A stretch of 64,000 nucleotides of DNA, taken from the NCBI GenBank assembly GCA_027063785.1, contig JAMORC010000063.1, positions 62,001 to 126,000 of the forward strand. The letters are read 5' to 3'. The translations under genes were made by a program, and so were the position numbers. Below, piece after piece: positions 55,219-60,524 of this stretch (position 1 is the stretch's first letter; each line of letters opens with the position of its first letter). A model generated the notes under the pieces. That model had not been told where the DNA came from. It worked only from the letters and a program-made list of their open reading frames with translations, and searched no databases. The stretch is from Desulfurobacteriaceae bacterium (GTDB lineage Bacteria; Aquificota; Aquificia; Desulfurobacteriales; Desulfurobacteriaceae).

Positions 55219-56664
55219 TTACCTCCTTTCCCTCTTTTTAAAGACCAACCTTATGGGTATCTTGTTGAAACCGAACTTTTCCCTAAACCTGTTTTCCAGG
55301 AAGCGCCTGAAGGACTTAGGAATTCCCTCTGGATAGTTTGAGAACATCAGGAACGTCGGAGGTTTCGTCTTTACTTGCGTTCCGTAGTAAATCTTGACCA
55401 CCTTGTTTTTATAAACGGGAGGTTGGTGTATTTCCATAAGCTCCTTCAAAGTCCTGTTGAACTCACCCGTCCTCACCTTCTTGGTGTACTGGCGGTACAG
55501 GTCTTTTATCTGTTTTAGAAGCTCGTTGAGTCCTTTCTTCTCCTTTGCAGATATGAATACCCGCGGGGCGTACGGAATAAAATCGAAAGTGAGATCAAGT
55601 TCCCTTTGAATTCTCTCCCAGTCCTTTTGATCCTTGAGCTTGTCTATTTTGTTCACGGCTATGATTATCGGCTTAAACTTCTCAAGGGCTATTCCGGCAA
55701 TCTTTGCATCCCTGTCGGTAGGTCCCTCCTCTGCGTCAATCAGGAGAACAACGACGTCTGCCCTGTCTATTGCGTCGAGCGCCCTCAGGTAGGAGTAAAA
55801 CTCTATGTCCTTTATCTTTCCCCTTCTCCTTATTCCCGCCGTGTCGATAAATATAAACTCATCGTCTCCTATCTTTATGTACGTATCTATGGCGTCCCTC
55901 GTTGTTCCCGGGATGTCGCTGACTATTGCCCTTTCCTCACCGACCAGGGCGTTGAGAAGGGTGGATTTTCCCATGTTGGGCCTGCCGACTATGGCGACCT
56001 TTATCGGTTCCTTCTCTTCTTCGATCAAGAATTCTTCACCGGCCTCGAGGTTCTCTGCAAGTTCCTCAAGGCCCGAGACATCTTCCCCCGAGATCAGTTT
56101 CTCCGCTCTTTCCCTTCTCTCTTCTCTTTCTGCCGCTTCCCTTGCAGCTTCTTTGAGATCTTCGGGGAGCTTTTCCAGGATTTTTTCTATCAGCGTGGGA
56201 ATGCCTATCTTATGGATTGCCGATACGGGGATAATTTCTTCAAAGCCGAGCCTGTAGAAGTCGTAGATAAGGTCTTCCATGAAGGGCTCGTCGACCTTGT
56301 TTACGGCGACAATTACTGGCTTTTTCCACTTTCTCAGGATTCTGGCCACCTCTTCGTCCAACGGCGTGACTCCCTCCTTCCCGTCGACGACGAAGACGAT
56401 GACGTCGGCCTCCTCCATTGCCCTCTTTGCCTGTTCTGTCGTTTCCTTTGCAAAGTCGTGAACGGAGGCGGTAGGATCAACTCCTCCGGTATCGACGAGG
56501 AGAACTTTGTGGCCGTCTAAATCTGCTTCTTGGACTATCCTGTCCCTTGTAACTCCGGCGGTGTCGTCGATGATTGCAACTTTCTTCTTAAGCAACCTGT
56601 TGAACAGGGAGGACTTGCCGACATTCGGCCTTCCGACGATCGCGACTACGGGGAGTCTTTTCAT
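55219..56664 (-). CDS. der: Ribosome biogenesis GTPase Der (EngA)
   Basis: Der is a double-GTPase needed for 50S ribosome assembly. The 481-aa protein has two G domains (GRPNVGKSS near 11 and GRPNMGKST near 228), each with DTAG and NKxD (NKVD, NKID), and a C-terminal KH-like domain from about 395 with the ending PIRLVFKKRERR. The linker of about 45 residues between the G domains is acidic and somewhat long. The ATG overlaps the upstream unknown gene by 4 bases. Confidence 0.96.
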   Translation of the reverse strand: MKRLPVVAIVGRPNVGKSSLFNRLLKKKVAIIDDTAGVTRDRIVQEADLDGHKVLLVDTGGVDPTASVHDFAKETTEQAKRAMEEADVIVFVVDGKEGVTPLDEEVARILRKWKKPVIVAVNKVDEPFMEDLIYDFYRLGFEEIIPVSAIHKIGIPTLIEKILEKLPEDLKEAAREAAEREERRERAEKLISGEDVSGLEELAENLEAGEEFLIEEEKEPIKVAIVGRPNMGKSTLLNALVGEERAIVSDIPGTTRDAIDTYIKIGDDEFIFIDTAGIRRRGKIKDIEFYSYLRALDAIDRADVVVLLIDAEEGPTDRDAKIAGIALEKFKPIIIAVNKIDKLKDQKDWERIQRELDLTFDFIPYAPRVFISAKEKKGLNELLKQIKDLYRQYTKKVRTGEFNRTLKELMEIHQPPVYKNKVVKIYYGTQVKTKPPTFLMFSNYPEGIPKSFRRFLENRFREKFGFNKIPIRLVFKKRERR

Positions 56665-57281
56665 GCCTCCTCCATTACGATGTCGTATAGCCTCCGGAAA
56701 ACGCAGGTGAACTCGATGTTTTCATCGTAAGCGAAGGGGACGGTTTCTATTTCCCAGATTTCCTCCCCGTTATAAAGGTACCTTGCTCCTAAAAAGGCAA
56801 TATCTTCCAGTTCTCGGTAGTAATACTCTACGTCTCCTTCTTTCTTCGCCTTTTCGGCAAATTTCCTGAGTTCTTCGACCGAGTCGAAGTTTGTAGTTGT
56901 CGGTATTGTAAATCGAACTGCTGCGTAGGTGTTCCCGCACTTTCTGCACTCGCCGTAGAGCTGAGTGGCGTCAACTACCGTCCTGAACTTACCGTTCTTT
57001 ACAAGTTCCTCTACCATTTCGATAAAGTCCGTAAAGGGTTCGTCTTCTTCCCCGAAGTAGAGGTTCTGCTCCGTTTCCTCTACCTTACTTGGAAAGACTT
57101 TTAGGAGGGTGGCACCGCAGTAGGGGCATTCAAGGTTTATTCCGTCCTGTCCTACGGGTTCTACAATGGCTACGAGCCTGTCGAAGAAGTCTGCAATGTC
57201 GTATTCATCGGCGAGAAGCTCTATCGGCTCGTTACACATGGAAAAATCGTACCTGTAGTTCTTTTCAATAAAATCCTCCAT
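56661..57281 (-). CDS. Zinc-ribbon protein of unknown function, 206 aa
   Basis: I do not recognise this protein. It has CPYC at Cys52-55 and CRKC at Cys112-115, a zinc-ribbon pair, 57 residues apart. Both flanks are acidic and helical. There is no signal peptide. It is the first gene of the der unit and shares ATGA with der, so the pair is made together. A role in ribosome assembly or RNA binding is a guess from context. Codon use is as in neighbours. Confidence 0.75.
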   Translation of the reverse strand: MEDFIEKNYRYDFSMCNEPIELLADEYDIADFFDRLVAIVEPVGQDGINLECPYCGATLLKVFPSKVEETEQNLYFGEEDEPFTDFIEMVEELVKNGKFRTVVDATQLYGECRKCGNTYAAVRFTIPTTTNFDSVEELRKFAEKAKKEGDVEYYYRELEDIAFLGARYLYNGEEIWEIETVPFAYDENIEFTCVFRRLYDIVMEEA

Positions 57282-57351
57282 CTCTCCTCCCTAAGGCTTT
57301 TTAAAAGTAAATTTAAGTTTCCTGTGAGCTTATGGAAACCTGTTTGGAGAA

Positions 57352-57385
57352 GGGCGGCCGAAGGGCGGCCGAGCCGCCCCGGCGG
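57352..57385 (-). terminator. GC-rich double hairpin at the end of the prefoldin/RAMP cluster
   Basis: GGGCGGC-CGA-GCCGCCC (57363-57379) is a perfect 7-bp stem. The 10-base GGGCGGCCGA occurs twice in tandem (57352-57361 and 57363-57372), so the GCCGCCCC arm can pair with either copy. It lies 2 bases after the stop codon of the four-helix membrane gene, before the start of the der unit. The minus strand shows only a weak pyrimidine tail, CTTCTCC, after it. Confidence 0.65.
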
Positions 57386-57386
57386 T

Positions 57387-57929
57387 TTATGCGTTTTTGG
57401 ATAAGAGCTTTTCGAGGGCGGAACTTACCTGCTGGCGGGCAAGCCACTCGAGGGACCAGACAAGGAGTGTTGGAACTGCGGCTCCGAGCGTTACTGCCTC
57501 AACGACCGGGCCGAAGATAACGGAGGATAGTATGTTTAACTCAAAGAAGGCGGCTACCAGGAACAGGAGGAAGAAGCCGAGGTAGTAGGCGTACTTGAAC
57601 GGTTCAAGAACGCCGTACCACATGGATAAAAGGGTTGCAACTTCCAGCTCTTCAAGCCTTTGTGCTTTGGCCGCTTCGGGACTTTTCGCCACTTTCTCGG
57701 CAATCTCTTCCCTGTTGACATCTTCTCCTTCTATAACTTTCTCCGCCGTGTTTGATATCGCTCCGTAGCCGAATATCAGCCTGTTTGCAAAGAGCCAGAA
57801 GCCTAAAAGCCCCAGTATAAAAGCTGCGGCTTCAGGATTTGCTGCAACAGAGGCGGTCATCAGGAAAAGGCCGAAAGCTATGGTGAGAGAGAAGAGAGTT
57901 AATGCTATCCACCAAACTGCCCGTTGCAT
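57387..57929 (-). CDS. Four-helix membrane protein, unknown function (last gene of the prefoldin/RAMP cluster)
   Basis: I do not recognise this 180-aa protein. Four TM helices are predicted at about 5-28, 33-52, 112-135 and 143-163. A charged cytoplasmic or periplasmic loop (about 58-100), GEDVNREEIAEKVAKSPEA, separates the second and third. It ends SSALEKLLSKNA. The ATG overlaps the stop of the anchored beta protein by 1 base (TAATG). It probably provides the membrane part of whatever complex this cluster encodes. Confidence 0.72.
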   Translation of the reverse strand: MQRAVWWIALTLFSLTIAFGLFLMTASVAANPEAAAFILGLLGFWLFANRLIFGYGAISNTAEKVIEGEDVNREEIAEKVAKSPEAAKAQRLEELEVATLLSMWYGVLEPFKYAYYLGFFLLFLVAAFFELNILSSVIFGPVVEAVTLGAAVPTLLVWSLEWLARQQVSSALEKLLSKNA

Positions 57930-58414
57930 TACTTACCTCCCTTGTTCTCTTCCTTCTTTTCCGCCTTTACCCCCATTTTGAACGGATGGGCGACGGTATA
58001 AAGGTCCGGAGAGAGGGGGTGCACGTAAGTGAAGGTTGCCAGGACGGCGTCTCCCAGCTTCAGCTTTTCTGTTCCTTCTTTCAGTTTAAGCTCTACTGCC
58101 GTTATTGTTCCCGGGGGAAGATTTACGTGAACCGGGACATGAGAAACGATGTAACCCTTCTCTTTTGTCTCTTTACCGGGAGTGAAGACAAACGATTCGT
58201 TGACAATAGTTAAAGGAGTTCCTCCCGGGTTGAGGATTGAGTAAACTATGGAGTGGTGTTCTTTGTTATAAACGGCGTTGACTACTATGGGGGAGCCGGG
58301 GATTGATGCAATTACTTTCTCAACATTCCTTCCGGTAAAGAAACTTCCGATAGTCCATCCGAGTACCAGTGCAACAAAAATTGAGACAACGAGAACGATA
58401 GATGCCCTTTTCAT
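57929..58414 (-). CDS. Membrane-anchored beta-rich protein, unknown function
   Basis: This 161-aa protein has one N-terminal TM helix or uncleaved signal (about 5-25), then a beta-rich domain (about 35-145) with VYSILNPGGTPLTIVNESFVF and GTITAVELKLKEGTEKLKLGDAVLATF. The pattern resembles Ig-like or LEA14-like sandwich domains on the outside of the membrane. It ends in a charged tail KAEKKEENKGGK. The ATG overlaps the 52-aa gene by 4 bases. I cannot name the family. Confidence 0.72.
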   Translation of the reverse strand: MKRASIVLVVSIFVALVLGWTIGSFFTGRNVEKVIASIPGSPIVVNAVYNKEHHSIVYSILNPGGTPLTIVNESFVFTPGKETKEKGYIVSHVPVHVNLPPGTITAVELKLKEGTEKLKLGDAVLATFTYVHPLSPDLYTVAHPFKMGVKAEKKEENKGGK

Positions 58415-58569
58415 TTTTCTTCCTCCTTTTCTTCAAGTAGTCTTAGTGCTTCTTCTTTTGTAACCTCAACCATAATTGAACCGAAGTTGAAAAAGAGTCG
58501 CCTCCCTTCCGGGAGGGACTTGACAAACTCAATTACTTTATTTTTGTTCTTCTTTTCCTTCTTCTCCAC
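58411..58569 (-). CDS. 52-aa prefoldin-beta-like mini-protein
   Basis: From GTG at 58569, with GGGGAGGAA four bases upstream, the frame gives 52 aa: a Lys/Glu-rich helix, then EGRRLFFNFGSIMVEVTKEE and a Glu-rich C-terminal helix. The last part follows the pattern of archaeal prefoldin beta just after its first coiled coil: beta hairpin with G-x-(I/L)-(M/L)-V, then charged residues and a long helix. It is too short for the coiled-coil arms. It overlaps prefoldin alpha by 32 bases and the next gene by 4. The beta-like assignment is inference; the coding frame itself is well supported. Confidence 0.6.
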   Translation of the reverse strand: MEKKEKKNKNKVIEFVKSLPEGRRLFFNFGSIMVEVTKEEALRLLEEKEEEK

Positions 58570-59020
58570 TTTCTTCCTCCCCTTTAGAGGCTTCGGACTG
58601 TCCGTGCTCTCTGATTTTCTGAGAGAGTTCCTCGACCCTTCCGTAAAGTTCTGCCATTGCTTTTTCAAGGGCTTCCCTTAAAGCCACGAGGGCAACGATT
58701 TCCTTCTCTATCTGTTCTACTGCCTCGTCAAAGGGAAGCTCGACGGATATTCCGCTACCTATGCTGATTACAATCTTCTCGACTTCCTCAAGTTTTGCGG
58801 CTACCTGAGCGATTCTTCCTACGGGCAGTAAGACTTCCTTGCCGGCTCCGAGGTCTTTAAGGTTTTTGAGGGTCGTTATGGTGCTCCTGTATTCAGAGAT
58901 CAGGATGTCGATGTTTGAGATTTCGACCCTCAGTGCCTCAATCTGGGCGATGAGGCTTCTGAGCTGGCGGTTGAGGTCGGCCATTTTCTTGTCGTCCTTC
59001 TTGAGAATCTTCTTCAGCAT
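58538..59020 (-). CDS. Prefoldin alpha subunit-like protein
   Basis: This 160-aa protein has a first coiled-coil helix (about 12-60, ADLNRQLRSLIAQIEALRVE), then the alpha-type double beta hairpin (KEVLLPVGRIAQVAAKLEEV and EKIVISIGSGISVELPFDEA), then a second helix (about 110-145) and an acidic tail. Length and order match archaeal prefoldin alpha (140-150 aa), a jellyfish-shaped chaperone that holds unfolded proteins. It is rare in bacteria and suggests transfer from archaea. The ATG at 59020 has GGAGG six bases upstream. Confidence 0.82.
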   Translation of the reverse strand: MLKKILKKDDKKMADLNRQLRSLIAQIEALRVEISNIDILISEYRSTITTLKNLKDLGAGKEVLLPVGRIAQVAAKLEEVEKIVISIGSGISVELPFDEAVEQIEKEIVALVALREALEKAMAELYGRVEELSQKIREHGQSEASKGEEESGEEGKEEQK

Positions 59021-59036
59021 GTTCCACCTCCCTTAA

Positions 59037-59756
59037 TTAGAGTTTTATTTCACACCAACCGGTAGTGCACCTTTCCCGTGGAAGGAAAATGACCCTTTTT
59101 GGCCTTATGTCCGTTTTCAGCTCGGCCATAAGTCTTTCCCTCACTTCCTTTATTCTCCAGAAGAAGAGGAGGTTTCCCTTGTACCTCGTTTCAGTCCACA
59201 TGCCGATCCTGAGAGGGATTTCCCATTTCTTCATATCGTTGAGGAGCGGGCGGTAAAACTCTTCGACTAAAGGGTGATCCCTCAGCATTCCCATTTCCAT
59301 CCTTACGAGGGCTTCACAGAAGGAATGTCCAGCCGCCTTGAGCTTTTCCAGATGAGGCGAGGAAATCGGAAGGGTTACCGTTCCTCTGAAGGCTTCTACT
59401 TTAAACGTTTCAACCTCTTCCCACCTTTTAAGGTCGAATACTTCGGCTGTTGTTTCGAATACTTCACCTTCGCTGAGCGGAATCCTTTCGGGGACGGATA
59501 GCCCGGAGAGAACCGGGTAGCGGTCGGTTATTATTTCCGTTATTCTGTCGATAACCTCGTTGGGATTCAGTTTTCCTCCGAGCAGGTACTTCTTAACTCT
59601 GGTTTCGATATCCCTGTCTTTCTTTATGTAGTAGTAGATGACGGCCGATCTAATGGCTTCTTTTAAAGCGTTTCCGGGAAGGAAGGGTCTGCCCGCCTCG
59701 TCCCGGGGAAAACCGTGCCTCGTAAAGAGGACGGGAGTCCAGGTCAGAAGTTCCAT
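59037..59756 (-). CDS. Orphan RAMP-superfamily protein, Csm5-like
   Basis: This 239-aa protein resembles type III CRISPR RAMP proteins. Near the N terminus, RPFLPGNALKEAIRSAV (23-39) follows the (I/L)PGS(S/T)LKGA(I/L)R pattern of Csm5 and Cmr-type subunits. Near the C terminus, IPLRIGMWTETRYKG then RPKRVIFLPRERCTTGWCEIKL in pattern matches the Csm5 end (RLG, later PxT and GWV). It is shorter than Csm5 (about 350-400 aa). No cas10, cas6 or repeat array is near, so it may have been recruited to a different complex. Family assignment is moderate. Confidence 0.55.
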   Translation of the reverse strand: MELLTWTPVLFTRHGFPRDEAGRPFLPGNALKEAIRSAVIYYYIKKDRDIETRVKKYLLGGKLNPNEVIDRITEIITDRYPVLSGLSVPERIPLSEGEVFETTAEVFDLKRWEEVETFKVEAFRGTVTLPISSPHLEKLKAAGHSFCEALVRMEMGMLRDHPLVEEFYRPLLNDMKKWEIPLRIGMWTETRYKGNLLFFWRIKEVRERLMAELKTDIRPKRVIFLPRERCTTGWCEIKL

Positions 59757-59765
59757 CTCTCCCTC

Positions 59766-60458
59766 CTACTTGAAGGCTGCCAGTATTTTGTCCGCCTTTT
59801 CGGCGATGTCTATTTCAAAGAGAGCTATTGTCGGCAGCAGCCACGAGACCCTGAACCTGGCATTACCGTCCTTGTTTTCCCCGAAGTAGGCGAGGGCAAC
59901 CCTTCCGAAACCTGCTTCCTTTTCGACCTTCTTTGCTTCCCTCAGGAATCGCCTGGCGACGTTCGGGAGTTTTTCGAAGGGATACGGTTTGCCTTCCTGT
60001 CCCCTCTGTTTTACAAGCTCAGTTGCCGTTCCGACGTTTCTTAATGCTTCTATCAAGTGATGAAGTCGGTGTTTCTTGAAGTAGGCCAGCAGTAGTGAAG
60101 CAGCGGGAAGCCTCAGGATCTCAATGTTCTGGTTATTTTCCCTCAGCTCTCCTACTATGTAAGCCCTGCCCTCTTCCATTTCTATGTGGGCGTAGAGCTT
60201 CTTGTTCTTCGGCATTTCTGTAAGGACTTCATTTACCTCGTACTTAATACCGGATTCTTCGTAAACATCTCCTGCCCGCCTTTTACCGTATTCGGCAACA
60301 AAGTAGGTTTCCACTCCTCCCTTTTTTCCGGCGATAAGGTCAAGACCCCACCTCTTGAGGGACTTGAACTTGAACTCCCTTTCTTTCTCGGGTTGTCCGA
60401 GAGTTTCGAAGACAAGTGTGTTTAAAGCCTGTATTTCTCTCAGCTCGAGTAAGTTCAT
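59766..60458 (-). CDS. Unknown protein, 230 aa, first gene of the prefoldin/RAMP cluster
   Basis: I do not recognise this protein. It is soluble, with mixed alpha/beta character. A first part (1-110) with beta strands [16 protein letters not shown] and [17 protein letters not shown] is followed by a helical part (115-190) containing [20 protein letters not shown], and a last beta strand pair with [24 protein letters not shown] at 60458, with TAGGAGGAG upstream and a good promoter at 60496-60524. It starts 10 bases before the RAMP-like gene. Confidence 0.7.
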
Positions 60459-60495
60459 CTCTCCTCCTAGGAAATTTTATAACTTCTAAATAAAA

Positions 60496-60524
60496 AATTT
60501 ATTTCTCCTAAATGATTGTGTCAA
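60496..60524 (-). promoter_or_regulatory. Promoter of the prefoldin/RAMP cluster
   Basis: On the minus strand TTGACA (60519-60524) is followed after exactly 17 bases by TAAATT (60496-60501). It is 38 bases upstream of the ATG at 60458, in an AT-rich intergenic stretch. TTGACA is a perfect -35. It shows that the cluster is read on its own and not from murB. Confidence 0.65.

Follow-up and report, generated by a model that had tools for sequence, protein, structure and literature searches.

The window (the whole 64,000-nucleotide stretch of DNA analysed) carries six genes in a row on the minus strand between positions 57387 and 60458, in the order UPF0128, RAMP, gamma-prefoldin, mini-beta, TM161 and TM180 (Table 1). 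They lie where an earlier note on this DNA had placed them, on one strand and with small gaps or overlaps of at most 32 bases. That note had also proposed a single promoter and a terminal GC hairpin; both sequences exist and neither stands above chance. Sites like the candidate promoter number 2 in the scanned region against 3.2 in shuffles, and the hairpin 3′ of TM180 is about as stable as shuffled sequence (z = -0.58) and is followed by no T tract on the minus strand, so that its reading as a terminator is unsupported.

Table 1 Genes and candidate promoter of the operon, in window coordinates
Feature	Position	Strand	Product	Remarks
Candidate sigma-70-type promoter, TTGACA-17-TAAATT	60524-60496	-		10/12 consensus; upstream of gene 1
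Gene 1, UPF0128/TIGR00703	60458-59766	-	230 aa	
Gene 2, stand-alone Csm5-like RAMP (predicted fold)	59756-59037	-	239 aa	9-base gap after gene 1
Gene 3, gamma-prefoldin (by sequence)	59020-58538	-	160 aa	16-base gap after RAMP
Gene 4, mini prefoldin-beta	58569-58411	-	52 aa	32-base overlap with gene 3
Gene 5, TM161	58414-57929	-		4-base overlap with gene 4
Gene 6, TM180	57929-57387	-		1-base overlap with TM161

Profile searches place the product of gene 1 in UPF0128, with the whole domain covered (PF03673, E = 1.5e-98, 329.1 bits against a cut-off of 21; TIGR00703, E = 3.6e-99, 330.7 bits against 155.4). This named family is broader than the module, Methanocaldococcus jannaschii having a member too, and the 230-residue protein is therefore not the system-specific part that it had been taken for. 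It is highly conserved, with a mean pairwise identity of 64% across 35 loci. An AF2 model (pLDDT 94.7) had no Foldseek match in the PDB at E ≤ 0.001 and none among viral structures (BFVD); judged from this model, the fold is apparently new with respect to those two collections. An apparent TM180-UPF0128 fusion at locus L158 was rejected, being in fact overlapping frames in GC-rich DNA. Among open-access papers, as distinct from subscription papers and preprints, we found none that names UPF0128, TIGR00703, DUF505, MJ0648 or MJ1463.

Sequence matches of gene 2 to RAMP families fall below cut-off (TIGR01899, the Csm5 model, E = 2.9e-5 and 23.7 bits against 38.3; PF03787, E = 0.0013). An AF2 model built from 59 relatives (pLDDT 95.3) gave ten Foldseek matches in the PDB at E ≤ 0.001, all of them to Csm complexes or Csm5, the best being 6o7e_Y (E = 7e-8, TMq 0.65). 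In its predicted structure, gene 2 is a RAMP of Csm5-like fold, which bears out the identification made in the earlier note.

Gene 3 had been called a prefoldin alpha subunit, and at the level of the family this holds (PF02996, E = 2.5e-23). A canonical alpha it is not: the protein matches 6vy1_A at E = 1.2e-32 (116.6 bits) and canonical alpha 2zdi_C at E = 1.1e-9 (42.3 bits), and its family profile scores 172.5 bits against gamma (6vy1) versus 55.4 bits against canonical alpha. Gene 3 and the M. jannaschii gamma-prefoldin share 47% identity over 128 columns. A small tree, in which the archaeal rows sit on long branches, splits the gene 3 clade together with archaeal gamma-prefoldin from canonical alpha (support 96/99). 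The entry 6vy1, labelled prefoldin subunit alpha 2, is what we take to be the M. jannaschii gamma-prefoldin filament; its 14 chains, near-identical to a Methanococci protein, agree with that identity. Judged by its sequence, gene 3 is a gamma-prefoldin of the filament type. According to PMC11117396, lethal heat shock raises M. jannaschii gamma-prefoldin 26-fold; the protein assembles into filaments inside cells and binds neither alpha nor beta, its cellular role being given there as unknown. In PMC4895442, filaments are described as growing where the hairpin sheets X1 and X2 make contact; a gamma-prefoldin engineered to have a dead X2 and one working hairpin caps the filaments and stops their growth.

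Mini-beta starts at a GTG codon at 58569, with the Shine-Dalgarno sequence AAAGGGGAGG six bases upstream, which gives 52 residues. Prefoldin_2 matches the longer ORF below threshold (E = 1.1e-5), gimC_beta matches 9 of 13 members of the family, and the family profile matches the PDB prefoldin beta 2zdi_A at E = 3.3e-6; the two family matches uphold its earlier description as a mini prefoldin-beta-like protein. It consists of a beta hairpin flanked by short helices; the two long helices of full-length beta are absent, and its length runs from 52 residues in the window through about 60-70 in most module versions to 93-99 in Aquifex-like genomes. In Methanococcales, a mini-beta overlaps the 3′ end of all seven gamma-prefoldin genes and of none of 23 canonical alpha genes. 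The gamma-prefoldin/mini-beta pair is common to bacteria and hyperthermophilic archaea. Canonical prefoldin has an alpha core that is terminated by single-hairpin beta subunits. A hairpin-only beta whose gene neighbours that of gamma-prefoldin in both bacteria and archaea is most simply read as a natural cap or nucleator; mini-beta would thus cap the gamma-prefoldin filament or nucleate it, and it could instead be a structural component. The available sections of PMC11117396 and PMC4895442 contain no mention that we found of a mini-beta partner of gamma-prefoldin.

The two membrane proteins proposed earlier are confirmed by hydropathy. TM161 has one hydrophobic segment (residues 1-28), a predicted N-terminal membrane anchor that would leave the remaining conserved domain outside the membrane, and TM180 is multi-pass with about four transmembrane segments. 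Pfam gave no convincing match among all relatives of TM161 (family A6) and none in a search of 21 TM180 members (family A5). Of the 136 Aquificota genomes, 43 have TM180. Its gene mostly stands immediately beside that of TM161, and the pair is also present where the rest of the module is absent. DUF505 occurs in 47 of the 49 genomes with the RAMP and in 18 other Aquificota genomes; it adjoins TM161-TM180 in genomes of genus g4 and the module in Aquifex-like genomes, lies next to gamma-prefoldin with a beta in between in f2 Aquificota, and is on another contig in the window's own genome. Modules of Hydrogenothermaceae include an added YfdX-family protein (PF10938, E = 3e-20); YfdX proteins of the tLST island have been described as chaperones of the periplasm on which heat resistance depends (PMC8290217). 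The membrane pair, together with the YfdX-like protein of some lineages, points to the envelope.

The association is strongest in co-inheritance. UPF0128, the RAMP and prefoldin occur in 47, 49 and 47 of the 136 Aquificota genomes, respectively (one more prefoldin lies below cut-off); 45 genomes have all three, 85 have none and 6 have a partial set. Their co-occurrence gave Fisher p values of 9e-29 to 1e-34 across the 136 genomes with phylogeny ignored. Of 19 Aquificota loci, 9 have all six genes in one same-strand cluster, as do 16 of the 80 loci from the database; the two sets overlap, and many contigs end early. The six-gene unit is far beyond chance. Homologues are neighbours in related genomes and are inherited together, which is what the earlier note's own test had called for. 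The order seen in the window is that of its family (Desulfurobacteriaceae, going by the closest relatives that carry a name), UPF0128-RAMP-gammaPFD-mini-beta-TM161-TM180, and recurs in Hydrogenothermaceae with a YfdX-like gene, DUF1931 and UPF0114 added; one Aquifex-like genus has gammaPFD-TM161-TM180-UPF0128-RAMP-mini-beta-DUF505. DUF1931, UPF0114 and YfdX come and go between versions. TM180 was undetected in 12 of the 49 genomes with the RAMP, some of them incomplete, and in f2 and f5 genomes UPF0128, the RAMP and prefoldin lie at two or more separate places and still co-occur. Presence and absence of these three genes alternate inside genera g4, g9, g20, g21 and g26, which makes more than one gain or loss likely.

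Beyond Aquificota, UPF0128 was present in 80 kept database loci, most of them in metagenome bins of apparent hydrothermal-vent origin, to judge from isolate names and taxa. Some bins are possibly misassigned, such as WOR-3-labelled contigs whose UPF0128 is 87% identical to that of the window. UPF0128 and the RAMP occur as a pair in 54 of the 80 loci, 23 of which have only those two among the profiled genes. Campylobacterota (Nautiliaceae, Nitratiruptor) have the pair, and prefoldin is absent from the genomes tested, which implies that the pair has an independent function. Next to the pair lie a PTPS-domain protein and a radical SAM protein in Nautiliaceae, and Rho and DNA polymerase III delta in Bacteroidetes; these have the appearance of housekeeping genes, and we did not take them for partners. 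Among Methanococcales, gamma-prefoldin occurs in 7 of 36 genomes, at about 170-177 bits with all others at ≤51, and UPF0128, the commoner of the two (16 genomes), is found in 6 of these 7 genomes versus 10 of the 29 others (p = 0.03). A similar RAMP was absent from all three archaeal UPF0128 genomes tested. In an Archaeoglobaceae bin, genes for a gamma-like prefoldin, a beta of 106 residues and DUF505 follow one another.

We propose that the six genes specify a holdase for proteins under heat stress, one that forms filaments, is linked to the membrane, is capped by mini-beta and has a UPF0128-RAMP arm that probably binds RNA, a reading to which we give a probability of about 0.45. Gamma-prefoldin would polymerise through its two beta hairpins, like its M. 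jannaschii relative. Mini-beta, with one hairpin and no tentacle, would bind the filament end, cap or nucleate it and set its length, and TM161 and TM180 would hold the assembly at the inner membrane. RAMP and UPF0128 would make up a second unit, which by analogy probably binds RNA, this being the least certain step of the proposal; the RNA bound may be mRNA or ribosome-linked RNA, by which the chaperone would be brought to nascent chains. DUF505 is a further likely partner. We infer filament formation here, membrane tethering and a role in heat stress, and a membrane-attached complex that handles RNA or unfolded protein in stress appears to be the best reading of the six genes.

A part in CRISPR type III or another anti-virus defence (the earlier note had entertained defence) would suit the Csm5-like fold of the RAMP and its weak matches to Csm5 models, yet it is highly improbable. 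Strong Cas10, counted only at PF22335 E < 1e-20 in a tally made by hand from match lists, is present in 25 of the 49 Aquificota genomes with the RAMP versus 49 of the 87 without it (p = 0.59). No convincing Cas10 occurs in 24 of the 49 genomes with the RAMP, including the window's own genome, where PF22335 gives a weak match only (E = 4.4e-4); this model is noisy, and its weak matches, likely to GGDEF domains, extend to 129 of 136 Aquificota genomes and to E. coli as well. Direct repeats of CRISPR length are absent from the window between 40 and 64 kb, PADLOC returned weak Csm5/Csm3 fragments only for the RAMP, and viral contigs encode no recognisable relative of it. The genes are also conserved, single-copy and syntenic, in which most defence genes differ. 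The RAMP is a Csm5 relative outside CRISPR.

The other alternatives divide the operon differently. It is unlikely, though well worth weighing, that UPF0128 and the RAMP form a ribonucleoprotein for a cellular RNA, with gamma-prefoldin and the membrane proteins joining it as optional chaperones or anchors. Theirs is the most constant pair of all at database loci, often alone and, in Campylobacterota, in genomes that lack prefoldin; UPF0128 is strongly conserved, and the RAMP fold resembles Csm5, a crRNA-binding subunit. Against such a particle, neither an RNA partner nor a nuclease motif was found, and no RAMP of this kind accompanies UPF0128 in the archaeal genomes tested. Its possible tasks include processing, decay, translation or a stable RNA. 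Harder to credit is a chaperone for envelope biogenesis or export, with gamma-prefoldin handing membrane or exported proteins to TM161/TM180 (and, in Hydrogenothermaceae, also to a secreted YfdX-like protein) and the RAMP serving as a scaffold that lost RNA binding. In its favour, the operon encodes two to four proteins of the envelope (TM161, TM180, YfdX-like, UPF0114), the TM161-TM180 pair is stable even when alone, and the tLST YfdX is described as a periplasmic chaperone; the failure to detect TM180 in a quarter of the genomes with the RAMP (12/49, some incomplete) speaks against it. Still less credible to us is a loose regulon of independent heat-stress genes that share one promoter without physical contact. 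Gene order does vary, the genes are dispersed in f2 and f5, and DUF1931, UPF0114 and YfdX are variable; such a regulon would nevertheless leave aside the near-perfect co-inheritance of three otherwise unrelated proteins, the overlapping genes and the gamma-prefoldin/mini-beta pairing across two domains of life.

Gamma-prefoldin, RAMP and UPF0128 are each known families; no published system that combines them is known to us, and a search of the open-access literature, as distinct from subscription papers, found none. At somewhat less than even odds, we suggest that the six genes make up an undescribed chaperone system of heat-loving bacteria, based on gamma-prefoldin filaments whose ends mini-beta would control, which TM161/TM180 would anchor in the membrane and which a Csm5-derived RAMP and UPF0128 would link to RNA. 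Genetic partners of gamma-prefoldin can now be named, and the small gene beside it, present in archaea as well, could be a natural filament cap. A Csm5-type RAMP outside CRISPR proves to be inherited together with a chaperone and with a protein whose fold is apparently new, and the module offers a way into genes found repeatedly in organisms near the upper temperature limits.

Compared with known systems, gene 1 is a clear member of the uncharacterised UPF0128/TIGR00703 family, for which partners are now described. The likeness of gene 2 to Csm5 of CRISPR type III-A lies in the predicted fold; Csm5 has about 360 residues against 239 for the RAMP, which scores below the family cut-offs, has no association with Cas10 and adjoins UPF0128. 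Hydrogenothermaceae versions of the module resemble the tLST/LHR heat-resistance island in having a YfdX-family protein beside membrane proteins and a chaperone. The island carries YfdX, HdeD, ClpK and small heat-shock proteins, whereas the module has the YfdX-like protein only, and in some families only; ClpK, small heat-shock protein and HdeD were not recognised in module versions, the window's operon is without YfdX, and the likeness is one of analogy only. With canonical prefoldin (alpha2 beta4) and group II chaperonin the operon shares the alpha and beta families by profile, but its alpha is of the gamma type and its 52-residue beta is without the long coiled-coil tentacles. The window's genome has no thermosome above cut-off (TIGR02339 gives 51.8 bits against 671, in a GroEL-sized frame of 549 residues), an absence that favours either a holdase role or some other recipient. 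Among solved structures, gene 3 is closest to M. jannaschii gamma-prefoldin (6vy1) and falls in its clade, apart from canonical alpha; gene 3, however, is bacterial and belongs to an operon that also encodes UPF0128, a RAMP and two membrane proteins.

Several loci in the family to which the window belongs show the succession of operon, 206-residue protein with two CxxC pairs and GTPase Der. The 206-residue protein matches no Pfam family. In Hydrogenothermaceae versions, a secreted YfdX-family gene is inserted 3′ of the mini prefoldin-beta gene, and DUF1931, of histone fold, closes the locus together with UPF0114.

Coordinates of features in the window and in other genomes
Feature	Position	Strand	Context
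Two-CxxC-pair protein	window 56661-57281	same as operon	3′ of operon
Hydrogenothermaceae versions	L072:7159-10231; L073, L098, L105
Apparent module remnant, G004	L200:6888-9442
Gamma-prefoldin/DUF505 neighbourhoods	L182:2073-4938; L181:4264-7039; L205:5774-8156
Mini prefoldin-beta gene, Methanococcales	L204:8933-9112; L209-L215		overlaps gamma-prefoldin 3′ end

Parts of the module also occur separately. Bins labelled WOR-3 or Thermotogota (L097, L101, L096) carry a TPR-repeat protein followed by TM180-UPF0128, with the RAMP on a separate contig in the L097 genome. An apparent remnant in G004, of an Aquifex-like genus, retains intact TM161 and TM180 and a short UPF0128 fragment carrying two stops, lacks the RAMP and mini-beta, and is immediately adjoined by DUF505. 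At a distance from UPF0128, DUF505 adjoins gamma-prefoldin in f2 Aquificota and an Archaeoglobaceae bin, with one small or beta-like gene between them. Four f5 genomes (G108, G109, G111, G112) each encode two UPF0128 paralogues, one divergent (about 40% identity to that of the window).

The consulted passages of the gamma-prefoldin papers (PMC11117396, PMC4895442) do not mention an adjacent mini prefoldin-beta gene. Every Methanococcales genome examined that has gamma-prefoldin carries such an overlapping gene, encoding about 56-60 residues.
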